From an uncultured Armatimonadota bacterium (GTDB lineage Bacteria; Armatimonadota; Fimbriimonadia; Fimbriimonadales; Fimbriimonadaceae), in assembly GCA_903927345.1 (NCBI GenBank), contig CAIYMO010000033.1, forward strand, positions 124,001 through 188,000: DNA of 64,000 nucleotides, read 5' to 3'. Of this stretch, positions 48,766-63,099 are shown in pieces. The position numbers and the translations under genes are program-made. The notes beneath the pieces were generated by a model. It was given only the letters and a program-made list of their open reading frames with translations, had not been told where the DNA came from and did not search any database. The first letter of the stretch is position 1. Every line of letters begins with the position of its first letter.

Positions 48766-48799
48766 CAGGAATAAGAATTTTGCTCAAAATATATTCCTG
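48766..48799. promoter_or_regulatory. Inverted repeat overlapping the cassette 4 -35 region
   Basis: CAGGAATA (48766-48773) and TATTCCTG (48792-48799) are exact complements 18 bp apart. The right arm covers the -35 hexamer, so it may be an operator; it may also form a weak hairpin after queA. Confidence 0.45.
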
Positions 48800-48822
48800 G
48801 TGAAGAATAACCATACTATAAT
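48794..48822 (+). promoter_or_regulatory. Putative promoter of prepilin cassette 4
   Basis: TTCCTG (48794-48799), 17 bp, and a perfect TATAAT (48817-48822). The leader is about 85 nt and contains a small CAATC/GATTG hairpin near 48880. Confidence 0.65.
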
Positions 48823-48913
48823 GAAACCAAGCCGAGTCGGTTCAGTCTAATCCCTGACCCATCAAGGTCCCAAGCAATCATCGAACGATTGATATTTTCA
48901 CTGAGGAAAATTC

Positions 48914-49717
48914 ATGCAAAACACAAAACGAGCATTCACTCTTATTGAGCTCCTTGTCGTTATCGCGATCATCGCGATTCTCGCGGCAATCCTGTTCCCA
49001 GTCTTCGCTCAAGCTAAGCTTGCCGCAAAGAAGGCTTCGGATCTTTCCAACTTGAAGCAGCAAGCAACTTCTGCAATCATGTACCAAGCTGACAATGACG
49101 ACGTCAGCGTCGCTCAGTTCCGCGATGCAGGCGGCTGGCTTTACTGGTTCGCTGGTTCAGGAAAGAACCTCGGATTCATGGATCCAACCGAAGGCAACAA
49201 CTGGAGCCGAGAAACCATGCCTTACATGAAGAACCTCGACATCTTCATGAACCCAGCAGCACCCCGCGACGGAGACGTGAACTACGGCTACCGAAACGTA
49301 TCGGGCGCAGGTAACGGCAGCTACGCCGCTAACGGAAACGTTCTCGGAATCAGCCAAACCAGCTACTCCGACCCAGCGAACACCATTTACCTTGTTGACA
49401 AGGCGACCACGACTCGCGAAGCGATCGTACAGCCAACCCCTCTTTACCCGCTCGGCTCTCCGCTGATCGCAAACGGTATTGACATCAACTGGGTCGGTAT
49501 CAGCTTCGGTTCCAAGGCTAACTACGCGTTCTGCGACGGACACGCGAAGACCCTGGATCGAAAGGGAATCCAGTTCCGAATGTACGGAATCAAGGGCACT
49601 GTCCACTGCTTCCGACCAGCATGTATCGACGTACCAAACACCCAAACCATGAACGACCCGAAGACCAACGGCAACTTCTGGGATACCTGGGGCGAAGTCG
49701 ACGTATCAGGCATCTAA
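48914..49717 (+). CDS. Prepilin-type N-terminal domain protein (cassette copy 4)
   Basis: A 267-aa prepilin-like protein: MQNTKRA, then [20 protein letters not shown] and FPVFAQAK, with Ala before the cleavage site as in copy 1. The DGHAKTLDRKG motif lies near residue 208. Several Gly/Asn/Tyr-rich stretches occur in between. A small lipoprotein gene follows after 63 bp, with a hairpin in the gap. Confidence 0.85.
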   Translation: MQNTKRAFTLIELLVVIAIIAILAAILFPVFAQAKLAAKKASDLSNLKQQATSAIMYQADNDDVSVAQFRDAGGWLYWFAGSGKNLGFMDPTEGNNWSRETMPYMKNLDIFMNPAAPRDGDVNYGYRNVSGAGNGSYAANGNVLGISQTSYSDPANTIYLVDKATTTREAIVQPTPLYPLGSPLIANGIDINWVGISFGSKANYAFCDGHAKTLDRKGIQFRMYGIKGTVHCFRPACIDVPNTQTMNDPKTNGNFWDTWGEVDVSGI

Positions 49718-49731
49718 CCTCAACACCTAAC

Positions 49732-49758
49732 CTGAACCCCGATTTACTCGGGGTTCAG
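49732..49758 (+). other. Hairpin between prepilin and lipoprotein genes (cassette 4)
   Basis: CTGAACCCC (49732-49740) pairs with GGGGTTCAG (49750-49758). There is no T-run. It may act as an RNA-stability or partial termination element that sets the ratio of the two proteins. Confidence 0.5.
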
Positions 49759-49780
49759 TCATGACCAAATACAGAAAACA

Positions 49781-50032
49781 TTGAAGACAAACAAATCTTT
49801 CATTCTTCTCGGTCTCCTCGCCCTGATCGGCACGGTCTTCCTGAGCGGATGCAGTGGTGGCGGCGACAAAGGCGAAATGGCACCTCTCTCTGACGAAGAG
49901 TTGCTGAATCGCGGTAAAGCCGGTCACGATGCAGCCGCAGGCGGAGCGCCTGCCGGTGGAACTCCTCCTGGGCAACCACAAACCACGGGCCTCCCTCCTG
50001 GAGCACCTCCCCCTTCGATGCCAACTCGATAA
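49781..50032 (+). CDS. Small Gly/Pro-rich lipoprotein (cassette copy 4)
   Basis: An 83-aa protein from a TTG start: signal peptide MKTNKSFILLGLLALIGTVF, lipobox LSGC, then an acidic segment (EMAPLSDEELLNRGKAGHD) and a Gly/Ala/Pro-rich tail ending in PPSMPTR. It matches the other cassette partners in size, anchor and low-complexity tail. The TTG start is the only suitable one before the signal peptide; its ribosome site is not clear. Confidence 0.7.
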   Translation: MKTNKSFILLGLLALIGTVFLSGCSGGGDKGEMAPLSDEELLNRGKAGHDAAAGGAPAGGTPPGQPQTTGLPPGAPPPSMPTR

Positions 50033-50049
50033 GGCATCAACTTAACGAC

Positions 50050-50080
50050 AACGCGCCTTCCAGCCACTGGTAGGCGCGTT
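50050..50080 (+). terminator. Hairpin after cassette 4
   Basis: AACGCGCCT (50050-50058) pairs with AGGCGCGTT (50072-50080). Only a weak T content follows, so it may be a poor terminator. Confidence 0.5.
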
Positions 50081-50097
50081 GCTGTATCCGAACCAAG

Positions 50098-50110
50098 TAA
50101 CCTAACCAAA
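50098..50110 (+). promoter_or_regulatory. Putative -10 of a leaderless GH127 transcript
   Basis: TAACCT (50098-50103) lies seven bases before the ATG at 50111. No ribosome-binding site is seen. Confidence 0.35.
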
Positions 50111-52378
50111 ATGCTCCTGTTCGCTCTCGCTGCCATGATTTCAAAGCCCAATATTCAAGCCGTCCAACCGTTCCCGCTTAGTTCGGTTCGAGTATTCGGA
50201 ATGCAGGAGCAGCGCCAGAGGGTCGACCTTAAGTATCTCAAGTCGCTCGACCCAATCCGGCTGATGCACGGCTTCTACGTCAACGCTGGAATCAAGCCGA
50301 AAAAGCCCCGTTATGGTGGCTGGGAAGCCATGGGAATCGAAGGGCACTCCCTGGGCCACTACCTGTCAGCATGCGCGCTGATGTACGCAGCGACCGGAGA
50401 CGAGGAAATGCTGGCTCGAACGAAGACGATCACCATCGAGCTTGCTGAGTGTCAAAAGGCCGCGAAGAGCGGATTCCTGGGCGGGATGCCCGACGCCGCT
50501 CGAATCTTTACCGAGCTCAAAAAGCGAGATATTCGAAGCCAAGGCTTCGACCTGAACGGAAATTGGGTTCCTTGGTACAACATACACAAAACCCTCGCCG
50601 GTCTGATCGATACCTATCATCAAACCGGTAACAAACTCGCTCTCGAAATCCTGATCAACAACGCCGAATGGACCAACGAGCTGACAAAGGACTACACAGA
50701 CGAGGACTGGCAGAAGATGCTCGCATGCGAGCATGGCGGAATGAATGAGTCGCTCGCTGATCTGTACTCAATCACCAACAACCCTCTTCACCTCGAACTT
50801 GCCGACAAGTTCCACCATAAAGCTATTCTCGATCCTTTAGAGAAAGGTGATCGCAAGCTGGCAGGCAAGCATGGCAACACCCAAATACCGAAGATTCTCG
50901 GTGCGGCCAGATTGTACGAAACGACCGGCGACAAACGATTCGAAGCCATTTCGAAGAACTTCTGGAACGAAGTCGTTGAGGATCACACTTACGCAATGGG
51001 GGGACACGGTCTCGGTGAGCACTTCGGACCTGCTGGCAAGCTCAGCGATCGCCTCGGCACCACCAATGCCGAGACATGCAACACCTACAACATGCTCAAG
51101 CTGACCGACCACCTCTTCCAGTGGTCGCCGTCAACTCGCCTGGGCGACTTCTACGAACAGGCCCAGCTTAACCACATCCTCACGAGTCAAGAGCTGGAAA
51201 GTGCCGGAGTCACCTACTTCGTCCCTCTCAAAGCAGGTGCCCAGAAGACCTACAGCGACCCCACTGAAGACTTCACCTGCTGCCGAGGAACGGGGATGGA
51301 AAATCACGCCAAGTACGGCGAAGGAATCTACTATCACAAGGGCAACGAGCTCTGGGTCAACCAGTACACCCCGTCTCACCTCATGTGGAAGGAGCAAGGG
51401 GCGACCGTAACCCTGTTCACCGACTACCCAAACTCAGAGACGATCAAGGTTCAGATTGACGCAAAGAAGGCGACCAAGCTTAAGCTCAACTTCCGCACCC
51501 CCAGCTGGGCGTCAAAGGGAATGTCGCTCAGTTTTGGTGGCGAAAAGGTCACTGCCAAAGCCGGTGACTGGCTTGTGTTCGAGCATGAGTTTAAAGGAAT
51601 TCAATCCATTGAACTCAAAATCCCGATGACCCTGCGAACCGTCCCCATGCCCGACAATGCCAACCGAGTCGCGCTCATGTACGGTCCAACTCTGTTGGTT
51701 GCGGAATGGGGTTCAACCGAAGAAAAGCCGGGCGAGCGATCTCCGGTGTTTATCAAAGACGACCGACCGGTTGAGCAGTGGCTCAAGAAAACTGGACCTC
51801 GAACTTGGCATTCCGTTGGAAATCTTCTTCCAACTGATCTGGCATTCCGACCGTTCTTCGAGATCCAACACGAACGATACAGCGCCTACCTCGACGTCTT
51901 CACCCACCAAGACTGGGAGAACCGCGAGGCCGAGTTCCGGAAGAAGGAGGCCGAAGAAGCCGCCCTCAATGCTCGAACTCTAGACTTCTTCCAGCCTGGA
52001 GAGATGCAAGCCGAGCGGGATCACAACGTCCAAAGTGAGTTTAGTGGTCCCGGTGAATGGCAAGGCAGAAAACTTCGGCACGCTTGGAACGGCGGATGGT
52101 TCTCGTTCGACCTCAAAGTCGACCCCACCAAGACCCAAGACGTCGTCTTTACCTATTGGGGCAGCGACCGACGCACCTTCGAGGTCCTGCTGGACGGCGA
52201 GCTTTGGGAGACCTACAAAGGCACTGGGCAGCCCGCTGACAAGTTCTTCGACAAGACCCTCAAACTCACCCCCGAAATGCTGAAAGGGAAGTCCAAGGTG
52301 ACGATCAAACTTCAGGCCCAAAAGCCCAACGGCTGGGCCGGTGGGCTGTTCGGCGTTCGAGTTCTGAAAGGCGCGTAA
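50111..52378 (+). CDS. Beta-L-arabinofuranosidase, glycoside hydrolase family 127
   Basis: A 755-aa GH127 (DUF1680) enzyme. The (alpha/alpha)6 barrel contains GGWEAMGIEGHSLGHYLSA, HGGMNESLADLYS and ETCNTYNMLKLTDHLF. The zinc/cysteine site includes ETCN and DFTCCRGTGMENH, the region with the catalytic Cys of this family. A beta-sandwich domain follows, then a C-terminal extra domain from about residue 630 (DUF6805-like). A short hydrophobic N-terminus (MLLFALAAMI) suggests secretion. It releases L-arabinose from beta-linked arabino-oligosaccharides. Confidence 0.9.
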   Translation: MLLFALAAMISKPNIQAVQPFPLSSVRVFGMQEQRQRVDLKYLKSLDPIRLMHGFYVNAGIKPKKPRYGGWEAMGIEGHSLGHYLSACALMYAATGDEEMLARTKTITIELAECQKAAKSGFLGGMPDAARIFTELKKRDIRSQGFDLNGNWVPWYNIHKTLAGLIDTYHQTGNKLALEILINNAEWTNELTKDYTDEDWQKMLACEHGGMNESLADLYSITNNPLHLELADKFHHKAILDPLEKGDRKLAGKHGNTQIPKILGAARLYETTGDKRFEAISKNFWNEVVEDHTYAMGGHGLGEHFGPAGKLSDRLGTTNAETCNTYNMLKLTDHLFQWSPSTRLGDFYEQAQLNHILTSQELESAGVTYFVPLKAGAQKTYSDPTEDFTCCRGTGMENHAKYGEGIYYHKGNELWVNQYTPSHLMWKEQGATVTLFTDYPNSETIKVQIDAKKATKLKLNFRTPSWASKGMSLSFGGEKVTAKAGDWLVFEHEFKGIQSIELKIPMTLRTVPMPDNANRVALMYGPTLLVAEWGSTEEKPGERSPVFIKDDRPVEQWLKKTGPRTWHSVGNLLPTDLAFRPFFEIQHERYSAYLDVFTHQDWENREAEFRKKEAEEAALNARTLDFFQPGEMQAERDHNVQSEFSGPGEWQGRKLRHAWNGGWFSFDLKVDPTKTQDVVFTYWGSDRRTFEVLLDGELWETYKGTGQPADKFFDKTLKLTPEMLKGKSKVTIKLQAQKPNGWAGGLFGVRVLKGA

Positions 52379-52426: not shown

Positions 52427-53920
52427 CTAACCCAGTTTGAACGTGCCCGCATAGAAGGACATCGGAGGCAACTTGACCGTTGCAACGCCGCCGCCGACTG
52501 ATGCCTCGAAATTTTGAGCAACAATCGTATTCGGCGACTCAAACGTATTGGCTGCCTTCGGATCTGTACCCGAGACCAACTCACCATTCAAGCAAGAGGC
52601 AACCGATCGATCTCCGACGCGAACCGTTACTTCGTGCGAGGAAGCCAGGTCGCGGTTCACGAGGAACACGCTCAGCTCATCGCCGTTCAAGATCGCGCTG
52701 GAATCGATGTAGGTCGCATCGCCGAAGTCTTCCGAAGCGTACGAAGGGCCATCCAATTGAACTTGTAGAGCAATACCCTCGCGCCGCTTTGCCATCATTT
52801 CAATCGGATAGAAGATCGTCTGGTAGACCATCTCGTCGCCACGAGTGAGCAACGGTGCGATGACGTTGACGATCTGCGCAATGTTCGCAATCTTGACCGA
52901 GTCAGCGTGGCGGATAAAGCTGTTAAGGAACCCGGCGGCAATGAGCGCGTCCTCGAGGTTGTACTCTTCTTCCAGAAGGTGTGGAGCGAACTTGCCGCCG
53001 CCATCATTGTGGATACCGTCTCGCACCCGGTACCAAACGTTCCACTCGTCAAAGCTCAGCTTAACTGGCTTCTTCATCCGCTTGGTGTGGGCGACTGACT
53101 TACAAACTGAGTCCATCGCCTCGATCTGTTCGTCAATCGAGTTGGTGACGGCCAGGTAGTTCGGCGTATCGTTCTTCCAGTTCCCAACGTAGCGGTGCAG
53201 CGAGATGTACTCAACATCGTTTTTACAATGCTCAAGCACCTTGCGGTCCCACTCAAGGTAAGTCGGAAGCTCAATCGCGCACGAGCCGCAAACCACGAGC
53301 TCAACGGATGGATCGACCATCTTCATCATGCGCGCCGTCTGTTGGGCCTGAATTGCGTAGGTTTCGGCTGGAACGTGACCAATCTGCCACGGTCCATCCA
53401 TCTCGTTTCCAAGGCACCAGAGCTTGACGTCAAACGGATCGGCGTAGCCGTGCTGTTCGCGCATCGCGGCATACTTCGATGGTCCCTTGATGTTGCAGTA
53501 CTCCAGCCAGTTTCGTGCCTCTTCCGGAGTTCCGGTTCCGAGGTTCACCGCCATCATCGGGGTCCAATCCATTCGCTTCGAAAGCTCCAAGAACTCATTG
53601 GGGCCGAATTGGTTCGACTCGAGCGACTGCCATGCAAGGTCGCGGGTGATCGGTCGGTTCTCGCGTGGTCCCACAGCATCTTCCCAGTGATAACCACTGA
53701 CAAAGTTTCCGCCAGGATAGCGCATGGCGGTAAACCGGAGTCTTTTCAGAGCTTCCAAAACGTCGGTGCGGCAACCATGCTCGTCAGCGTGCTTCGAAGT
53801 CGGCTCATAAACTCCCTCGTAGACCGCTCGCCCGAGGTGCTCCAAAAAGCCACCGAACACACGAGGGTCAACCTCGCCAACTTTGAAGGATGTATGCAAA
53901 TGAAGTGTGCTTGTTTTCAT
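52427..53920 (-). CDS. abfA: Alpha-L-arabinofuranosidase, glycoside hydrolase family 51
   Basis: 497 aa from ATG 53920, with no signal peptide, so probably cytoplasmic. GH51 features are FGGFLEHLGRAVYEGVY, RYPGGNFVSGYHWEDAVGP, CLGNEMDGPWQ (acid/base Glu) and KLSFDEWNVWYR (nucleophile Glu). A C-terminal beta-sandwich ends in KLPPMSFYAGTFK. The frame is open to 53968, but the ATG at 53920 gives the normal start. It is the last gene of the operon with the sugar transporter. Confidence 0.94.
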   Translation of the reverse strand: MKTSTLHLHTSFKVGEVDPRVFGGFLEHLGRAVYEGVYEPTSKHADEHGCRTDVLEALKRLRFTAMRYPGGNFVSGYHWEDAVGPRENRPITRDLAWQSLESNQFGPNEFLELSKRMDWTPMMAVNLGTGTPEEARNWLEYCNIKGPSKYAAMREQHGYADPFDVKLWCLGNEMDGPWQIGHVPAETYAIQAQQTARMMKMVDPSVELVVCGSCAIELPTYLEWDRKVLEHCKNDVEYISLHRYVGNWKNDTPNYLAVTNSIDEQIEAMDSVCKSVAHTKRMKKPVKLSFDEWNVWYRVRDGIHNDGGGKFAPHLLEEEYNLEDALIAAGFLNSFIRHADSVKIANIAQIVNVIAPLLTRGDEMVYQTIFYPIEMMAKRREGIALQVQLDGPSYASEDFGDATYIDSSAILNGDELSVFLVNRDLASSHEVTVRVGDRSVASCLNGELVSGTDPKAANTFESPNTIVAQNFEASVGGGVATVKLPPMSFYAGTFKLG

Positions 53921-53930
53921 TGAATCGTAA

Positions 53931-54743
53931 TCAGTCCTTGAGGCCGGACGAAGCCATGCTTTCGACAATCTGCTTTTGAAAAACGAGGAAGACGATGAGG
54001 AGCGGGATAGAAGCTAAAACGCTGGTGGCAAGAGTGCGACCGTACTCGGTGTAGTAAGACGCTTGGTACATCGCGATGCCGACCGGGAGGGTGTAGTTCC
54101 GCACAGAATCCATGTACACCAGCGGCGAAACGTAGTCGTTCCAAGACCCAATAAATGTCAGAACTCCAAGCGTCGCTAGAGCCGGAGCGCACAGCGGGAG
54201 GGTGACATTGATAAACACCTGCGCCGGAGAGCAACCGTCGATCAGAGCGGCTTCTTCAACGGCCGAAGGCACTGCCCGCATGAATTGAGAGAGCATGAAC
54301 ACTCCAAACCCGCCCGCCGTCGCCGGAACGATGAGTGCTGCGGGAGTATCGAGCCAATGCAACTTGCTCAAGATGAAGTACACCGGAACCAAGAACAACT
54401 GTCCGGGGACCATCATCGAGAAGACAACCGCACCCAAGAACGCGCCGCCGCCCTTCACCTTGAGCCGAGTGATCGCAAACGCCGCCATCGAAGACAGCGT
54501 GAGCACCAGCAGAGTAACCGAAGACGAGACGAACACGCTGTTAAGAAGCCAACGCCCAAACGGAGCCTCCTCAGACCACTCCAAGACGTTGCGATAATTC
54601 TCAGATGTCCAAAGTTTGGGCACCACCGATGCCGGATTGAGGACTTCTCCTTCCGCTTTAAAGGAAGTGAAGAACATCATCACGATGGGGAAAATGAACG
54701 CAAACGCCACCAGAAGCATCACGACCCAGAGGAGCTTTTTCAC
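53931..54743 (-). CDS. Sugar ABC transporter permease (AraQ/MalG type)
   Basis: A 270-aa permease with six membrane segments and the EAA loop EEAALIDGCSPAQVFINVTLP (about residues 180-200). It pairs with the permease encoded just upstream. It overlaps that gene by 4 bp (ATGA). No ATPase is encoded nearby. Substrate is likely arabinose or arabino-oligosaccharides, judged by neighbours. Confidence 0.92.
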   Translation of the reverse strand: MKKLLWVVMLLVAFAFIFPIVMMFFTSFKAEGEVLNPASVVPKLWTSENYRNVLEWSEEAPFGRWLLNSVFVSSSVTLLVLTLSSMAAFAITRLKVKGGGAFLGAVVFSMMVPGQLFLVPVYFILSKLHWLDTPAALIVPATAGGFGVFMLSQFMRAVPSAVEEAALIDGCSPAQVFINVTLPLCAPALATLGVLTFIGSWNDYVSPLVYMDSVRNYTLPVGIAMYQASYYTEYGRTLATSVLASIPLLIVFLVFQKQIVESMASSGLKD

Positions 54744-55618
54744 TGTGCGGAGTTCCTCCTCATCGCAATGAACTGGACGATGCCAAACACCATAATGACT
54801 GCCGTCAGCATCCAGCTAATCGCCGCTGCATAGCCAAGTCGGTACTGCTGAAACGCGATTTCATAGATGTACTGAACTGTGCCGCGCGTCGAGAGCTCAG
54901 GGCCACCTTGGGTGAGAAGGGACGCCTGCGGGAACATTTGGAACGCACCAATTGTGTTCGTCAGAACGGTAAACAGAAGAACTGGCTTGATCAGCGGCAT
55001 CGTAATCTTCGAGAAGGTCTTCCACGAACCCGCGCCATCAAGAGCTGCCGCTTCGTGGTACATCGTTGGAATCTGCTGGAGCGATGCTAGCAGGATCACC
55101 GCTGTGCCTCCACTCAACCACCACAACGACATCAGCACAATGCTCGGCATCGCCAGCGATTTCTCACTCAGCCAAGGAACAGCCGTCCCACCAAACTGCT
55201 TGATCACCCAATTGAAGAACCCAAACTCAAGGTTATAGAAGAACTGCCATAGGATCGCTGTGACCGCGATCGTAAAGATCCCCGGCAGGAAGATCATGCC
55301 CCTAAAAACGTTCCGTCCCTTCTTAACTGCGTTCAGTCCAACTGCCATCGCGAGCGACAATACGAGCAGAGACGGGACAAAAAGTAGGACATATCGCGCA
55401 GTAGCGATCATCGCCTGCTTCACATAATCATCCTTCCAAGCGTCGGTGAAGTTCTGCGTTCCAATGAACTTAATCTGCTCGGTAGCGGTCAGGTCAAACT
55501 GCATCACCGAGAGCACCAGTGCGACCAAAATCGGCAGAACCAAAAAGACCAAGAACGACAACGCATACGGAGCCAAGAAGAGATATCCAGTGAGCTGTTG
55601 GCGCTTCTTCCAAGTCAT
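54740..55618 (-). CDS. Sugar ABC transporter permease (AraP/MalF type)
   Basis: A 292-aa permease with six membrane segments and the EAA loop EAAALDGAGSWKTFSKITMP. It lacks the long MalF periplasmic insertion, as is usual for the AraP group. It overlaps both neighbours by 4 bp (ATGA), so the binding protein and the two permeases are tightly coupled. Confidence 0.92.
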   Translation of the reverse strand: MTWKKRQQLTGYLFLAPYALSFLVFLVLPILVALVLSVMQFDLTATEQIKFIGTQNFTDAWKDDYVKQAMIATARYVLLFVPSLLVLSLAMAVGLNAVKKGRNVFRGMIFLPGIFTIAVTAILWQFFYNLEFGFFNWVIKQFGGTAVPWLSEKSLAMPSIVLMSLWWLSGGTAVILLASLQQIPTMYHEAAALDGAGSWKTFSKITMPLIKPVLLFTVLTNTIGAFQMFPQASLLTQGGPELSTRGTVQYIYEIAFQQYRLGYAAAISWMLTAVIMVFGIVQFIAMRRNSAQ

Positions 55619-56871
55619 GGAGTCACCACCTTCTTGTGCTGCTCGGCGTCCCGATCCATCGCCATTTGCGTGTTCTCGTCGGCAATCTTTAGAGCCTCCT
55701 TCGCTGTTGCGCGGCCCCGGATCACCTTCTCAACCGCCAAGTTGACTTCGATTCCCATCTCGAATAAGACTGGGATACGCGGGAAGTACATCATCGTCGG
55801 AATCTGCTCTGCAAACGCCGCTTGAACCTGCATCTTCTTGAACTCCGGTGTTTCGCGCACCGATCGCCGTGCTGGAACCTGCCCCGCCCCCGCCCATCGA
55901 AGGGAGTTTGCCGACAGATACTTTACAAACCGCTCGGAAGCCTCGCGCTGAGTTGCACCCATCCCGGGTCGGAAGCACAGCGTGTGCGAGTCCGCCAATG
56001 TACCGGCATGCTTTCCAATCACCGGAATCGGAGCCCCGGCATAGTTCATCCCCTCCAAGCGCAGCAGATCTCCCAGCATGTAGATGCCGTCCCAAACCAT
56101 CCCGACCTTCTTTTGCCGATATCCAACCCAACCGAGTTGATTATCCGGCGGTGGAATCAGGTCGTACTTGCTCTTCAGAGAACCTAAAAACTCGAGCGCC
56201 TCGACATTCCCAGGGCAGTCAAGATCTACCTTCCCGTCCGCGCCCATATAATGCCCGTCGAATTGGGGCAACAAGGACATGAAGTTATTCTGCCAAGCCG
56301 TCAGCGCGAATCCGAAAGTCTCGCTGGACTTCATCACCTTGGCCGCTCGGAGGAACTCCTCGCGATTCTTCGGCGCAGCCGATAGCCCTGCCGCTCGAAG
56401 CATGTCCTTGTTCAGAAACATTCCTTGCGGGTGAATATCAAGCGGAACGCAATACCGTTTGCCCTCGAACTTGGTCTGCTCTACAACGTACGGGTCGAAG
56501 TCATCCGCAGGAATGGCCGACTCAAACAGGGAGTCCATTGGGGCCAACACTCCGGCTCGCTGCATCCGGGTCAGCGCCGAAGCGTGAATCACAAAAACGT
56601 CCGGTCCACGCCCGTCCAGCCCAGAAACCATGACCTTGTTGTAATACAGCGCCCACGGAATCCGCTGCATCGTAACCTCAACATCGGGGTTTTCTCGATT
56701 GAAGTCCCGAATCATCTCGAGCATCACCCGACCGTCAGGACCTGTAAACCCGTTCCAGAATGTTATCGGTGTCTTCTTGCTTGCCAGAGTGCCGCAGGAA
56801 AAGTCTCCTCGAACGACAGACAGCCCAAGGCAAAGCCCCAAAAGCAGTCCGATTCCCGTTCGAGCAGTCAT
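55615..56871 (-). CDS. Sugar ABC transporter substrate-binding protein
   Basis: A 418-aa extracellular solute-binding protein of family 1. The N-terminus MTARTGIGLLLGLCLGLSVVRG is a signal peptide, with a cysteine at residue 26 (DFSCGT) that does not form a classic lipobox. The start of the mature part, ITFWNGFTGPDGRVMLEMIR, is typical for the family. It captures sugar for the following permeases. It begins three bases after the GH43 stop. Confidence 0.9.
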   Translation of the reverse strand: MTARTGIGLLLGLCLGLSVVRGDFSCGTLASKKTPITFWNGFTGPDGRVMLEMIRDFNRENPDVEVTMQRIPWALYYNKVMVSGLDGRGPDVFVIHASALTRMQRAGVLAPMDSLFESAIPADDFDPYVVEQTKFEGKRYCVPLDIHPQGMFLNKDMLRAAGLSAAPKNREEFLRAAKVMKSSETFGFALTAWQNNFMSLLPQFDGHYMGADGKVDLDCPGNVEALEFLGSLKSKYDLIPPPDNQLGWVGYRQKKVGMVWDGIYMLGDLLRLEGMNYAGAPIPVIGKHAGTLADSHTLCFRPGMGATQREASERFVKYLSANSLRWAGAGQVPARRSVRETPEFKKMQVQAAFAEQIPTMMYFPRIPVLFEMGIEVNLAVEKVIRGRATAKEALKIADENTQMAMDRDAEQHKKVVTP

Positions 56872-56874
56872 AAG

Positions 56875-58179
56875 TTACGACCCCAATCGGTAGCCTCGAA
56901 CTACCAGCCCCGCCTGGGTGCGACCTACGTAGTAATTGCCCTGATAGCGCAACGTTACTTTGTCTTCCCAGAACTCACCCGGCGTCTCTCGCTTAGGCCA
57001 CATCAATGTGAGTTGATCCTTTGCAAGCTTCCACTTCCCCGACCGATCTCCACTCTTGAATTCACCTTTCGGAAGGAATTTGATCTCGTCGACGTTGCCG
57101 AAATCGGCCTGATGCGCCCACGTTCCACTGAGTGACTTCTGAGCGGTCAGCGTGGTGGCCGTCAAGTGCTCCAAAGGAAGCCCGGGCAGTGGCCACCCGT
57201 CCTCACCCCAGAACATTTCACGCACCTGAACTCGCGGCATGCCCCACTTTCCGTCGGTCCAATACTTACGACCATCGTAAAAGTGGTAGCTCGTCAGCCA
57301 CCGTCCCTTCGAATCTCTCAAAACCTCGTTGTGGCCGGGAGAAAACATCGGAGGGGAAGTCTTCAATAAGTTGACGTGGCCGCCTTCCGTCATCGCCTTT
57401 CCGCTCGCATCAACGAATGGTCCAGTCGGGTTTTCGGATCGCCCAACCATCATCTGATAAGTGCTCCGTACGCCTTGTGCCGCCAAACCATAGGATACGA
57501 ATAGGTAGTAGAAGCCGTCCTTGAACAGAACACATGAGCCTTCCAACGCATTTTCGCGTGAGGCCGTGTTTCGAGCGACCTGGAACGGTGGCTTGCCCGC
57601 CGCATCAAGCATCTTCCCTGTGGCCGGGTCCAACTCAACGCAGTAGATGCCTGCGAAGTAGCTACCGAAGAACAGCCAGTGTCGCTTCGCCTGATCAATC
57701 AGGATATCGGCGTCGATGCAGTTGTAAAAATTGCGGTCTTTGCGACTGTCAATGACCTCGCCATGGTCAACCCAACCTTCCGTTGGCTTCTCGGGATCAA
57801 AGTGGTCGTTTTCGAGGAATCCGATGACGGAGTCGTTCCCGCCAAAGAACCGGCTAGCGCAGTAGTAAATACGAACCTTCTTGCCAAACACGACGATATC
57901 AGGTGCCCAAACTGAACGATGCTCTGGCACGCGTTTTTTGAGCCAGTCGGGATTTTCTTTCAATAGGGGACCGTGGAACTTCCACGTTTTAAAGTCCTTG
58001 GTCGTCTTCACCACGCCCATCCCTTGACCGCTTGTCGAGACGGACACGTAGGTGCCATTGAATTCAAGGACGGCAGGGTCGTGGGTGTGCTCCGAGCCTT
58101 CAGCAAAGGACCCATCGCCCGGAAAGGCTGACCAATCAGAGGTCATCATCATCGCCACCACCGCAATCGTTCCGAGCAT
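56875..58179 (-). CDS. Arabinan endo-1,5-alpha-L-arabinosidase-like protein, glycoside hydrolase family 43
   Basis: A 434-aa GH43 enzyme with an N-terminal hydrophobic segment that may be a signal peptide. Five-bladed propeller residues are visible: HDPAVLEF (catalytic base Asp), SVWAPDIVVF, CIDADILID (pKa modulator), LEGSCVLFKD (acid Glu) and SPGHNEVL. The layout is that of endo-arabinanases (GH43 subfamily 5). A C-terminal lipocalin-like domain follows from about residue 345. First gene of the GH43-binding protein-permeases-GH51 operon. Confidence 0.9.
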   Translation of the reverse strand: MLGTIAVVAMMMTSDWSAFPGDGSFAEGSEHTHDPAVLEFNGTYVSVSTSGQGMGVVKTTKDFKTWKFHGPLLKENPDWLKKRVPEHRSVWAPDIVVFGKKVRIYYCASRFFGGNDSVIGFLENDHFDPEKPTEGWVDHGEVIDSRKDRNFYNCIDADILIDQAKRHWLFFGSYFAGIYCVELDPATGKMLDAAGKPPFQVARNTASRENALEGSCVLFKDGFYYLFVSYGLAAQGVRSTYQMMVGRSENPTGPFVDASGKAMTEGGHVNLLKTSPPMFSPGHNEVLRDSKGRWLTSYHFYDGRKYWTDGKWGMPRVQVREMFWGEDGWPLPGLPLEHLTATTLTAQKSLSGTWAHQADFGNVDEIKFLPKGEFKSGDRSGKWKLAKDQLTLMWPKRETPGEFWEDKVTLRYQGNYYVGRTQAGLVVRGYRLGS

Positions 58180-58209: not shown

Positions 58210-58230
58210 AAATATAGCTCACTCGGAATA
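58210..58230 (-). promoter_or_regulatory. Shared arabinose promoter element, copy B
   Basis: Read on the minus strand, TATTCCGAGTGAGCTATATTT. It differs by one base from the plus-strand copy in the isomerase operon promoter region (59275-59295). It lies about 30-50 bp before the GH43 start and contains a -10-like TATATT. Confidence 0.75.
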
Positions 58231-58244
58231 AGTATAGCGAAAGA

Positions 58245-59210
58245 TTACGCGAGTGGGAAGACTTTCTTTGCGGGAGGGATGTCACCTCCACGTGAAGAGT
58301 GGTGAATTTTGAAAACAATATCCGTTTCAAATGAACCAAATCCCTTACCGAAAAGCGAGAATCCACCTTGGTTAGTGGCCTCAGGCTTCACGCCCAGCCT
58401 CACCTTAGTTGCCTGCCATGGTTGTACGTTAATCGACGAAATTGAAACGTCGCTCAGCTTTTCGCCATCCACAAACGCCCCCGCCGGACCAACACTGAAG
58501 ACCTTGTAGTAGCCATGTTGGTTCATGTAATCCTGCCACCACGGTGGGTTCAATCGACCACGCTCTCCGCCCGGATCTCCAGGCGAAATCCACGTACCGA
58601 TCTCAACATCGTTGATCCAAATCGTAATGTCGCTTGGATACTCGTTGGCGTAACCAGGTGCCTCGGAGCTGACTTCCATCGCTAACTCGATGGAATCGAT
58701 CACGGTGGTGAAGGGAAGTGAGTTCGGGAAAACGTATTCGACAAATCCCCCGCCAGCCCAGAGAATCTCAGCCTTCGCTCGATCAGGGAAGCTAAACGCC
58801 AGCGGATCGTCGATAACACCAATCATGCGATCTCGGGTCGCAAGTCCGCAGGTTGGTAGAGGCTCGATCTGGGTGTACATTCCCACCGGAACCTCAACTT
58901 CCACAACGTAATCCTTCTCTTTGCCCTTCCCGCCCAGATCAACAACGATTCGATCATGGATGCGCCGGCACCGCTTCTGCATGCCCTGAACGCCAGATGT
59001 GTAATCGCTGACCACAAGCCCCGCTTCTTCAAGGGTCTGAACGTGCTTTGTAATGCTCGGCTGAGCGAGACCAAGCGCCGCTGAGAGCTCATTAATGTTC
59101 ATCTCGCCCTCCGAGAGGAGTTCTAAAATGCGAATGCGAGACTCAGAAGAAAGTGCGCGAAAGATTGCGGCACTCTCATTAGAACTGAGGTCACGAAGGT
59201 TGAGCGGCAT
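58245..59210 (-). CDS. ArsR-type transcriptional regulator of the arabinose region
   Basis: 321 aa from ATG 59210 (an ATG at 59231 is also in frame). Residues 12-75 form an ArsR/winged HTH (SSESRIRILELLSEGEMNIN, ELSAALGLAQPSITKHVQTL). The long C-terminal part (about 95-310) is a beta-rich domain, probably a sensor for a sugar, with the conserved NPPWWQDYMNQHGYYK and WINDVEIGTW. It resembles predicted regulators of COG4189. It is divergent from the isomerase operon, is followed after 65 bp by GH43, and two copies of a candidate operator flank it. Confidence 0.82.
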   Translation of the reverse strand: MPLNLRDLSSNESAAIFRALSSESRIRILELLSEGEMNINELSAALGLAQPSITKHVQTLEEAGLVVSDYTSGVQGMQKRCRRIHDRIVVDLGGKGKEKDYVVEVEVPVGMYTQIEPLPTCGLATRDRMIGVIDDPLAFSFPDRAKAEILWAGGGFVEYVFPNSLPFTTVIDSIELAMEVSSEAPGYANEYPSDITIWINDVEIGTWISPGDPGGERGRLNPPWWQDYMNQHGYYKVFSVGPAGAFVDGEKLSDVSISSINVQPWQATKVRLGVKPEATNQGGFSLFGKGFGSFETDIVFKIHHSSRGGDIPPAKKVFPLA

Positions 59211-59274
59211 ATCTAATCCAGAATCATACACCCCAAAACTCAGAAATACATTCTTTAGGCATAAAGCTGGGGAA

Positions 59275-59295
59275 TATTCCGAGTCAGCTATATTT
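59275..59295 (+). promoter_or_regulatory. Shared arabinose promoter element, copy A
   Basis: TATTCCGAGTCAGCTATATTT upstream of the isomerase operon. It overlaps a perfect palindrome GGAATATTCC (59271-59280) and ends in a -10-like TATATT. No good -35 is present at 17 bp, which suggests control by an activator or by the ArsR-type regulator. Confidence 0.75.
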
Positions 59296-59362
59296 ATAAG
59301 AGCCCGGCGAGATTTGCCGACGCATTAGCTTCATTAAATCGTGCAAAATAGTTCAATTCACC

Positions 59363-60769
59363 ATGAAGAGAGTCACGCTAGGCGTCATCATCGGCAACCG
59401 AGGGTTCTTCCCAACCCACCTCTGCGAGAGTGGTCGTAAGACGATCCTCGAAGTCCTCGAGCAAGAGGGAATTGACGTTGTCATTCTGCCCGATACGGCC
59501 TCGCCGGCTGGCTCAATTGAGTCGCTTGCGGAAGCCCATGCCTGTGCCGATCTCTTCCGCGTAAACCGCGATAAGATCGACGGTGTTCTCGTTACGCTGC
59601 CAAACTTCGGCGACGAGCGAGCCATCGCAAACGCCCTGCGATTTGCCGAGCTCAATGTTCCCGTCTTGATCCACGCTTTTGCTGATGATGCGAAGCGCAT
59701 GACCATCGCAGACCGACGCGACAGCTTCTGCGGAAAGATGTCGGCCTGCAACAACCTTCGACAGTACGGAATCAAGTACACACTGACCGAGCTCCACACC
59801 GTGGACCCAACCAGCGCTTCCTTCCGAGCTGACCTTCAAAAGTTCGCCGCGACCTGCCGAGTAACCAAAGGTCTCCGACGAGCACGCATCGGTGCGATCG
59901 GTGCCCGACCAGGCGCGTTCAACACAGTCCGCTACAGCGAGAAGCTCTTCGAACAAGCCGGAATCACCACCGAAACCCTCGACCTTTCCGAAGTCCTCGG
60001 ATGGGCAAACAAGCTTTCCTCTTCAGACGCGAAGGTGAAAGAGAAGCTTGAGAAGATCCAGGCTTACACCAAGACCGAAGGAATTCCTGCTGAAAGTCTC
60101 GACAAAATGGCTCGACTGGGAACCGCAATCGACACATGGGCGACCGATAACCGAATCGACGCCACTGCAATCCAGTGCTGGACCTCGCTCGAAGAGTTCT
60201 ACGGAGTCGTTCCGTGCACCCTCATGTCGATGATGTCCGATTCACTCAAGGCTTCGGCATGCGAAACCGACGTCGCTGGCACCGTCTCGATGTACGCGCT
60301 CCAACTCGCTTCGCAGACTCCGTCCGCGCTTCTTGACTGGAACAACAACTACGGTGGAGACCCCAATAAGTGCGTCGTCTTCCACTGCTCCAACCTTCCA
60401 AACTCGGTCTTCGCTGACCAGAAGATGGACTACCAAGAAATCATTGCCGGGACCGTCGGAAAGGACAACACCTACGGAACCGTCGTGGGACGCATGAAGA
60501 ACGGCCCATTCACCTTCTGCCGAGTCTCGACCGATGACTACAGCGGCGAGATCGTTGCTTATCTTGGAGAAGGAAAGCTCACCAACGACAACCTGATCAC
60601 CTTCGGTGGATTTGGCGTCGCCGAGATTCCTAACATGCAGAATCTGCTTCGCTTCATCTGCGAAAACGGCTTTGAGCACCACGTTGCCTTCAACCTTTCC
60701 GAGGTCGCTGGCGCTGTGGAAGAAGCGCTCAGCAACTATCTTGGCTGGGCAACCTACCGACACCAGTAA
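59363..60769 (+). CDS. L-fucose/L-arabinose isomerase family protein (probable L-arabinose isomerase)
   Basis: A 468-aa protein of the FucI-like group (COG2407), not of the classic AraA family. It is followed by L-ribulokinase and L-ribulose-5-phosphate 4-epimerase genes, so it most likely converts L-arabinose to L-ribulose in place of AraA. Visible pieces are the Gly/Arg-rich N-terminus (TLGVIIGNRGFFPTHL), RIGAIGARPGAFNTVRYSE in the middle, and the C-terminal FHCSNLPNSVFAD and VGRMKNGPFTFCRVSTDDY. First gene of the operon. Confidence 0.8.
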   Translation: MKRVTLGVIIGNRGFFPTHLCESGRKTILEVLEQEGIDVVILPDTASPAGSIESLAEAHACADLFRVNRDKIDGVLVTLPNFGDERAIANALRFAELNVPVLIHAFADDAKRMTIADRRDSFCGKMSACNNLRQYGIKYTLTELHTVDPTSASFRADLQKFAATCRVTKGLRRARIGAIGARPGAFNTVRYSEKLFEQAGITTETLDLSEVLGWANKLSSSDAKVKEKLEKIQAYTKTEGIPAESLDKMARLGTAIDTWATDNRIDATAIQCWTSLEEFYGVVPCTLMSMMSDSLKASACETDVAGTVSMYALQLASQTPSALLDWNNNYGGDPNKCVVFHCSNLPNSVFADQKMDYQEIIAGTVGKDNTYGTVVGRMKNGPFTFCRVSTDDYSGEIVAYLGEGKLTNDNLITFGGFGVAEIPNMQNLLRFICENGFEHHVAFNLSEVAGAVEEALSNYLGWATYRHQ

Positions 60770-60800
60770 GCAGAACAAACTCCGCGAATCGAATCTAATC

Positions 60801-60829
60801 TCCCGGCGCTCAGCCGGGATTTCCATATG
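60801..60829 (+). promoter_or_regulatory. Hairpin before araB
   Basis: TCCCGGC (60801-60807) pairs with GCCGGGA (60813-60819). The right arm contains GGGA, the only ribosome-site-like sequence, seven bases before the araB ATG, so it could lower translation or end some transcripts. Confidence 0.45.
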
Positions 60830-62464
60830 AACAACAAATACACCATCGGCGTTGACTACGGAACCAACTCGGTCCGAGCCCTGATCGTTGACATCAGCGA
60901 TGGCAGCGAAGTCGGAACCGGAGTTTGGAACTACGAAACCGGTGAAGCGGGAATTCATCTCGACCCCAACGACGTTCATCTTGCACGGCAGAACCCAGCG
61001 GACTACCAAAAGGGCTTCTACGAATCCGTAAAGCTCGCATTGGAGGATGCCATAGGCATCAATCGATCCCAAATCGTCGGCATCGGAGTCGATACCACGG
61101 GTTCAACCCCCTTGCCAATCGACAAAGATGGCATCGCCCTCGCCCTAAAGCCTGAGTTCAAAGGCAATCTCCACGCGATGGCGTGGCTATGGAAGGACCA
61201 CACCGGCTACGCGGAAGCCGCCGAAATCACCGAGAAGGGCGCAAGCTATCCTTACTTGGCAAAGTGCGGCGGAACTTATTCTTCGGAGTGGTTCTGGTCA
61301 AAAATCTTGCGATGCAAGCGCGTCGCTCCCGATGTATTCGCTGCAGCCGAATCCTGGGTCGAACTTCAAGACTACGTTCCGGCGTGGCTGGTCGGCAAAG
61401 CTAAGCCCGCAGACATCCCGCGCGGCATTTGTGCCGCCGGACACAAAGCGATGTTCCACGATGACTGGGGCGGTCTTCCTTCCGAAGAGTTCCTTGCAAC
61501 TCTGGACCCCGATCTCGCGTCCTTGCGCTCACGGCTCTTCTCAAGTACCCAGACTTCTGATCAGGCGGCAGGAACCCTTCTAGCCGAACATGCCGAAATC
61601 CTCGGCCTTGAAGCAGGAATAACCGTTGCGGTTGGCGCATTCGACGCCCACCTCGGCGCGGTCGGTTCTGGTGTCAAACCAGGCACCATCGTCAAGATCA
61701 TGGGCACCAGCACGTGCGACATCATGATCGGCGATGCATCTACCCCAGATATCAAAGGAGTCTGCGGGATCGTCCCCGGCTCAGTCGTCCCTGGATACAT
61801 GGGAATCGAAGCCGGCCAAAGCGCAGTCGGAGACCTGTTTAACTGGCTCGTTAACCACTTCGGCAGCGACCACGCAACCCTCAACGACGAAGCTCTGAAA
61901 CTGAAAACGGGTGAGAGCGGTCTCGTCGCTCTGGACTGGAACAACGGTAACCGAACCATCCTCGTTGACCCACTGCTTTCTGGACTGATCGTCGGCCAAA
62001 CCCTTCACACCACTCGCGCCGAGGTCTACCGCGCCCTGATCGAAGCGACCGCCTACGGGTCACGCAAGATCATTGAGCGGATCGAGGAAGGGGGCGTCGC
62101 CGTCACCGAAGTTGTTGTCTGCGGAGGCATCGGCGAAAAGAGCCCGCTCACGATGCAGATCTATGCGGACATCCTCAACCGTCCGATCAAAACCAGCCGC
62201 TCCGCCCAAACCTGCGCCCTCGGTTCCGCAATCATGGCAAGCGTCGCTGCGGGAGCACATACCGATGTTCTCTCCGCAGTTGGTGCGATGACGGCAACTA
62301 AAGAGAAGGTCTACCTGCCTTCGGTTGAGTCCAACGCGACCTACGAAAAGCTGTACGCAATCTACACTCAACTCCACGACGCCTTCGGAGTGAAGGGAAC
62401 TCAAACCGACTTGAGCCAAGTCATGAAACAGCTCATCCAAATCCAAAAGGACTCCGTGAAATGA
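60827..62464 (+). CDS. araB: L-ribulokinase
   Basis: A 545-aa FGGY-family kinase. The start YTIGVDYGTNSVRALIVD is the sugar-kinase phosphate motif. Further AraB features are GIGVDTTGSTPLPID, WKDHTGYAEA, the ATP site near VVCGGIGEKSPLTMQIYAD, and an ATA-type motif. It phosphorylates L-ribulose. It is followed by araD with a 4-bp ATGA overlap. Confidence 0.93.
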   Translation: MNNKYTIGVDYGTNSVRALIVDISDGSEVGTGVWNYETGEAGIHLDPNDVHLARQNPADYQKGFYESVKLALEDAIGINRSQIVGIGVDTTGSTPLPIDKDGIALALKPEFKGNLHAMAWLWKDHTGYAEAAEITEKGASYPYLAKCGGTYSSEWFWSKILRCKRVAPDVFAAAESWVELQDYVPAWLVGKAKPADIPRGICAAGHKAMFHDDWGGLPSEEFLATLDPDLASLRSRLFSSTQTSDQAAGTLLAEHAEILGLEAGITVAVGAFDAHLGAVGSGVKPGTIVKIMGTSTCDIMIGDASTPDIKGVCGIVPGSVVPGYMGIEAGQSAVGDLFNWLVNHFGSDHATLNDEALKLKTGESGLVALDWNNGNRTILVDPLLSGLIVGQTLHTTRAEVYRALIEATAYGSRKIIERIEEGGVAVTEVVVCGGIGEKSPLTMQIYADILNRPIKTSRSAQTCALGSAIMASVAAGAHTDVLSAVGAMTATKEKVYLPSVESNATYEKLYAIYTQLHDAFGVKGTQTDLSQVMKQLIQIQKDSVK

Positions 62465-63099
62465 ACTTACGAGAACGAGTTTGCAACGCCAACAAGATGC
62501 TCCCGAAAGCCGGGCTCGTCACCATGCACAGCGGCAATGTCAGTGGCCTCGATCGGGAGACTGGCAAGCTCTACATCAAGCCGAGCGGAATGGACTACGA
62601 CGCCATGATCCCTGCCGACATGGTCGAAGTCGATCTTGAAACGGGAGAGGCGACCGCTAACCAGCGTAAGCCGAGCGTCGACCTTTCGCACCACGTTTAC
62701 TTGTTCAAAAATGATCCCACCGTCAACGCGGTCGTCCACACTCACAGCAACTACGCGACCGCCTTCGCCGCCGCTCACCGGTCAATCCCCTGCGTTCTCA
62801 CCGCAATTAGTGATGAGTTCGGCGGAGAAATTCCTTGCGCGCCCTACATCGATAACGAAGGTGACCATATTGGTGAAGCAATCCTGAAGTATCGAGGTCG
62901 GGGCCCCGCCATCCTCCTCGGCAACCACGGCGTCTTCGCCTGGGGCGAAACCGTCGAAAAGGCCCTCAAAGCCGCGATCATGATCGAAGACGTCGCCAAG
63001 ACCGTCCACCTCAGCTACCAGTTGGGTCAACCCGTTCCGATTGACCCGGCCGAAGTCGAGAAGTGGTGGGACCGCTACCACAACCGGTACGGTCAATAG
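62461..63099 (+). CDS. araD: L-ribulose-5-phosphate 4-epimerase
   Basis: A 212-aa class II aldolase-family enzyme. The phosphate-binding GNVSG and IKPSGMDY, the zinc ligands in VVHTHSNYATAF and GNHGVFAWG, and a Tyr in the last residues (YHNRYGQ) fit AraD rather than fuculose aldolase. It converts L-ribulose 5-phosphate to D-xylulose 5-phosphate, sending arabinose into the pentose phosphate pathway. It overlaps araB by 4 bp. Confidence 0.9.
   Translation: MNLRERVCNANKMLPKAGLVTMHSGNVSGLDRETGKLYIKPSGMDYDAMIPADMVEVDLETGEATANQRKPSVDLSHHVYLFKNDPTVNAVVHTHSNYATAFAAAHRSIPCVLTAISDEFGGEIPCAPYIDNEGDHIGEAILKYRGRGPAILLGNHGVFAWGETVEKALKAAIMIEDVAKTVHLSYQLGQPVPIDPAEVEKWWDRYHNRYGQ

Follow-up and report, generated by a model that had tools for sequence, protein, structure and literature searches.

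A predicted operator of an ArsR-type regulator at three arabinose-related promoters in an uncultured member of the Armatimonadota

In a stretch of 64,000 nucleotides from an uncultured member of the Fimbriimonadaceae (contig CAIYMO010000033.1, positions 124,001 to 188,000; the window), two promoter regions share a 21-bp element that is very probably the operator of the ArsR-type regulator encoded between them. By our reading, a dimer of this protein would repress three arabinose units, and an arabinose-type sugar would release them. An earlier note on this DNA had proposed the element as a probable operator; half-site conservation, spacer and hexamer controls, blind matrix ranks and the joint occurrence of site and regulator, inside the genus and outside it, all argue for that proposal. 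In sequence comparisons the predicted operators of the window are inverted repeats in which 8 bp separate two half-sites of 6 bp, WTATTC-N8-SWATAW. What the compared genomes show directly is the sites, where they lie and how far they are conserved, the genes present, and the fact that sites and regulator occur together.

Sites and promoters in the window

The two copies of the 21-mer lie where the earlier note had found them, TATTCCGAGTGAGCTATATTT at 58230-58210 on the minus strand and TATTCCGAGTCAGCTATATTT at 59275-59295 on the plus strand, and agree at 20 of 21 positions. They precede divergent units (GH43/ABC/GH51 on the minus strand, isomerase/kinase/epimerase on the plus strand), and the ArsR-type gene (58245-59231, minus strand) is situated between them. 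A chance origin of the pair had been judged unlikely, and a uniform-base estimate gives about 1e-7 expected matches of at least 20/21 for two such promoter regions. Abundance across the genome had been named as an observation that would count against an operator; the 21-mer is not common, with exactly two copies in 3,106,875 bases and none further at up to 3 mismatches. Within the 64-kb window alone, no further copy is found at this threshold (0 expected, 100 shuffles). The two reported sites were correct but not the whole set, as a third and a weaker fourth had been missed:

59274-59293, plus strand: predicted operator A, ATATTC-CGAGTCAG-CTATAT, before the isomerase/ribulokinase/epimerase unit; matrix rank 1
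58212-58231, minus strand: predicted operator B, TTATTC-CGAGTGAG-CTATAT, before the GH43/ABC transporter/GH51 unit; matrix rank 5
48791-48810, plus strand: predicted operator C, ATATTC-CTGGTGAA-GAATAA, before the prepilin-like/GH127 unit; matrix rank 2
48892-48911, plus strand: possible weaker second operator, ATATTT-TCACTGAG-GAAAAT, directly before the prepilin-like start codon; matrix rank 4

Operators A, B and C have the same orientation relative to transcription. Operator C has one mismatch to ATATTC-N8-GAATAT, and operators A and B deviate from the perfect palindrome at 2 and 3 of 12 positions, respectively. Their common pattern, WTATTCCNNNTNARSWATAW, derived from these three sites, has no match elsewhere in the genome at up to 1 mismatch, and elements of the 21-mer type are confined there to arabinose-related promoters. 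The site at 48892-48911 is identical in the sister genome G018 and is less certain because its entire surroundings are conserved too. Of two other 1-mismatch palindromes in the genome, one falls within the coding sequence of glmS (C5:25932) and the other at the 3' end of panC (C14:556); given these locations we take them as chance. The palindrome GGAATATTCC that had been seen overlapping copy A is present at 59271-59280; it is better described as an extended half-site, and it is imperfect in G018.

The units behind these sites were assigned with Pfam and NCBIfam:

59363-63099, plus strand: unit A, fucose-isomerase-family sugar isomerase, ribulokinase and L-ribulose-5-phosphate 4-epimerase
52427-58179, minus strand: unit B, GH43, sugar-binding protein, two ABC permeases and GH51 arabinofuranosidase
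48914-52378, plus strand: unit C, prepilin-like protein and GH127 beta-L-arabinofuranosidase

The sugar isomerase of unit A is a probable arabinose isomerase, and the gene order of unit B is conserved across the genus. The prepilin-like gene of unit C (48914-49717) encodes an N_methyl motif and an H-X9-DG end; in most loci (L075-L097, L138, L146) it adjoins the regulator or its paralogues and carries the operator. By this arrangement, a pilin-like protein would be co-regulated with glycan degradation.

A consensus promoter scan, which returned 2 promoter-like pairs in the region where 1.0 was expected, places one beside operator B:

58231-58259, minus strand: promoter-like TTCCCA-17-TATACT, abutting operator B

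Both hexamers are conserved in G018. The view that neither copy has a good -35 needs correcting for copy B, which has this promoter-like pair immediately upstream (58259-58231). Nor does the element appear to replace the -35, as had been suggested; it rather overlaps the -35 region, with the TTCCCA of the operator's left half 16-19 bp before TATNAT in most relatives, and copy B abutting TATACT. In unit C, TTCCTG stands 17 bp before a TATAAT that lies at about 48817, downstream of operator C. The arrangement of the operator and its distance to the -10 differ between promoters; a site over the -35-to-spacer region or abutting the -10 implies repression. Activation, with the regulator bound at the -35 region and recruiting RNA polymerase, would account for the poor matches to a -35 box, and the operators of units A and C and of most relatives do coincide with the -35 position or lie upstream of it. 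Yet the sites lie over part of the core promoter, its -35-like TTCCCA included, copy B abuts the TATACT -10, most members of the ArsR family repress, and in the C. bescii paper such a placement was the ground for inferring repression by an ArsR-family protein (PMC8579813); we consider activation unlikely.

Upstream of the isomerase there is a further conserved block:

59336-59351, plus strand: second conserved block, AAATCGTGCAAAATAG

The block is identical in this genome, G015 and G018 while its surroundings diverge, and is present as a single copy in the genome at up to 2 mismatches. It could be a second promoter, a leader element or a binding site.

Conservation of half-sites and association with the regulator

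Comparison with 19 genomes of the genus yields the consensus ATATTC-N8-GAATAT or ATATTCCCAWTTGGCTATRA. Compared with their G018 counterparts, the three operators carry 2 changes in 36 half-site positions and 13 in 24 spacer positions (Fisher p = 3e-5). In G018, the half-sites of operator B are identical and those of operator C are conserved, each with a changed spacer; at the position of operator A, both G015 and G018 carry a perfect ATATTC-N8-GAATAT. Since sister species keep the half-sites but not the spacer, a 20/21 match exaggerates the part that counts: the operator proposed by the earlier note holds up, but as an inverted repeat of 20 bp whose 8-bp spacer is largely free to vary, and not as a fixed 21-mer. 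Owing to this spacer drift, the literal 21-mer has almost no matches in relatives. In the window, the right half of operator A is altered to that of B and its spacer resembles B's, whereas the palindromes at A in the sister species are still perfect. The near-identity of A and B therefore seems to reflect recent local convergence or conversion and would not be needed for function. A short gene conversion between the inverted copies A and B is possible.

The inverted repeat is present upstream of the regulator genes of relatives. In 586 kb around these genes, ATATTC-N8-GAATAT has 11 matches at 11/12 or better, where the 59 other orderings of the hexamer average 0.25; the 8-bp spacing stands out, with other spacers from 0 to 20 giving 0-3 matches. 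Exact matches number 13 in the 20 genus genomes, where a version with a 7-bp spacer and a reversed control give 0 and 0. Seven of the 13 lie at a regulator or isomerase gene, 4 of these before canonical araA. The ranks listed above come from a matrix trained on 13 sites of divergent relatives only, with the window's species and its two nearest relatives left out, and refer to all 64 kb. When the two ATATAG-type training sites were removed, the sites at 59274, 48791, 48892 and 58212 ranked 3, 6, 4 and 11. The original third-ranking hit is unrelated and lies within a coding sequence, as do high-scoring sites at 2281 and 36397.

Across relatives, sites precede the regulator, canonical araA, and GH43 and GH51 units. 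The position equivalent to copy B, from the regulator to the following prepilin-like gene or GH43 operon, holds a site in about 15 of the 18 genus genomes that have the regulator, as counted with leave-one-genome-out matrices; its consensus is WTATTCCCAWTTGGCTATRA, often with TATNAT after about 7 bp. The B-type pattern TATTCMCANNTGRCTAT has 11 matches in 81 genomes of the family, 9 of them at the regulator or arabinose genes, although 6 of those 9 had suggested the pattern. Among the 5 independent matches, two are the only ones outside the genus, each with a regulator orthologue on one side and the prepilin-like gene on the other; another is directly before a separate arabinofuranosidase gene in G003. 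In G007 (L102 near 1501), an exact ATATTC-N8-GAATAT sits in a longer near-perfect palindrome before a different, short ArsR-type gene. Paralogous regulators (48-53% identical; L024-L029) have another palindrome-like box, such as GTGATAATATAGCAC, over the probable -10, perhaps a different operator. A GTGNTA-N-TANCAC palindrome near the starts of paralogous regulators reaches only 5 of 7 when scored for symmetry, and we make no claim for it.

The operator has, by these comparisons, outlived an exchange of the isomerase between species. Canonical araA (identified in relatives by NCBIfam, 781 bits, cutoff 622) is found in 13 of 20 genus genomes and the fucose-isomerase-family gene in 9, with both in two (L115-L127); the genome studied here has only the latter (59363-60769) and no canonical araA. 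A site precedes canonical araA in 7 of 12 regulator-bearing genomes, and in the other 5 no recognisable site is found within 250 bp. No clear copy of the motif was seen upstream in distant relatives from Firmicutes and spirochaetes.

The sites might instead belong to a different regulator, such as a GntR/LacI AraR-type protein or a global carbon regulator encoded elsewhere, with the ArsR-type protein regulating only itself. Caldicellulosiruptor abfA has sites for both AraR and the ArsR-family ArbA (PMC8579813), and our assignment of the sites to the ArsR-type protein is by sequence comparison. However, throughout the genus and in two further genera the sites track the ArsR-type gene, lying either before it or at the junction behind it, and the isomerase genes of two genus genomes without the regulator have no good sites, a small test as only these two genomes lack it. 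We judge control by another protein improbable, slightly more so than activation. That the 21-mer is a mere promoter element or chance repeat needing no regulator is scarcely credible: it is AT-rich, close to start sites and contains the -10-like TATATT, but it is unique in the genome to arabinose-related promoters, and its inverted half-sites are conserved while the spacers drift.

The regulator and a model for its action

The preferred candidate for binding these sites is the protein encoded between copies A and B:

58248-59210, minus strand: ArsR-type regulator, 321 aa; winged helix at residues 6-97, CBM6/35/36-like domain at about residues 100-310

Its start was revised because relatives begin at an ATG equivalent to 59210, which is more likely than the GTG at 59231. 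The nearest named relatives come from Fimbriimonas MAGs (Armatimonadota). The protein belongs to the ArsR/SmtB family by PF01022 (HTH_5; 45.2 bits, cutoff 22) and NF033788 of NCBIfam (58.0 bits, cutoff 55); Pfam gives only ArsR-like and related HTH families and no GntR-type match. A structural model (pLDDT 88.8) retrieves CzrA in a fold search (Z 13.3, 81 residues, 2.2 A). The alpha-3 recognition region, with the aligned segment NINELSAALGL, contains no metal-site cysteines, and orthologues also lack the CxC pair. A second conserved domain follows in all 38 aligned regulator sequences. Modelled alone (pLDDT 93.7), this C-terminal domain finds CBM6, CBM35 and CBM36 as its best fold matches (Z 9-9.8, 117-125 residues, about 10% identity), including 2cdp (CBM6; Z 9.8, 123 residues, 2.8 A) and 2w47 (CBM35; Z 9.6), while no Pfam CBM match in the regulator exceeds threshold. 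The modelled domain is probably a sugar sensor, a CBM-like fold being by itself no proof of sugar sensing.

We infer DNA binding by the regulator, repression rather than activation, and the type of effector. A regulator dimer would bind the inverted repeat WTATTC-N8-SWATAW and, lying over or beside the core promoter, would block RNA polymerase at the isomerase/kinase/epimerase, GH43/transporter/GH51 and prepilin-like/GH127 units. The CBM-like C-terminal domain would bind an arabinose-type sugar, which may be L-arabinose or an arabino-oligosaccharide; the sugar-bound regulator would then leave the DNA, and all three units would be expressed.

Comparison with known systems

ArsR proteins are best known as metal and redox sensors. 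In the open-licence literature, we found no papers that describe CBM domains in ArsR proteins or arabinose regulation in Fimbriimonas, and no described sugar regulons in Armatimonadota. The present analysis assigns a complete arabinose regulon, with an operator in three promoters and genus-wide support, to a probable ArsR-type repressor in this phylum. The regulon offers short DNA targets and a testable sensor, and could serve as an arabinose switch for the lineage. A wider reading, which we consider about as likely as not, is a broad class of ArsR-type repressors, present in Armatimonadota, Firmicutes, spirochaetes and an Anaerolineaceae MAG and often next to sugar ABC transporters, each of which would read a carbohydrate directly via an internal CBM-like sensor; the regulon of the window, in which the isomerase was swapped and the operator kept, would be its clearest example.

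The SmtB/ArsR metalloregulators (CzrA, SmtB, CadC) have the same winged-helix fold and AT-rich inverted-repeat operators at promoters, but they are single-domain proteins of about 100 aa with ELCVCDL-type cysteines, whereas the regulator described here has 321 aa, a CBM-like C-terminal domain and a cysteine-free recognition-helix region. The beta-sandwich of CBM6/35/36 modules is the best match to its predicted C-terminal domain; unlike those modules, the domain lies inside a cytoplasmic regulator, at about 10% identity and below the Pfam threshold. AraR of Bacillus and Clostridium likewise exerts repressor-type control over an arabinose utilisation regulon through palindromic operators. However, AraR joins a GntR winged helix to a LacI-like sugar domain, so that the DNA-binding and sensor domains are unrelated and the operator is different.

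The closest precedent, compared by its published description, is ArbA/ArbR of Caldicellulosiruptor. ArbA, an ArsR-family protein predicted in 2021 to regulate abfA, was called the first ArsR-family factor in carbohydrate use; repression was inferred from site placement, and the same study reports a non-orthologous arabinose isomerase (PMC8579813). Both cases involve an ArsR-family protein in arabinoside use, several conserved predicted sites that overlap promoters and imply repression, and a comparative approach. They differ, as described, in scope, operator definition and lineage: ArbA is local, divergent from abfA and placed beside a GntR-type AraR, whereas the regulator of the window would control three units that include the isomerase, kinase and epimerase.
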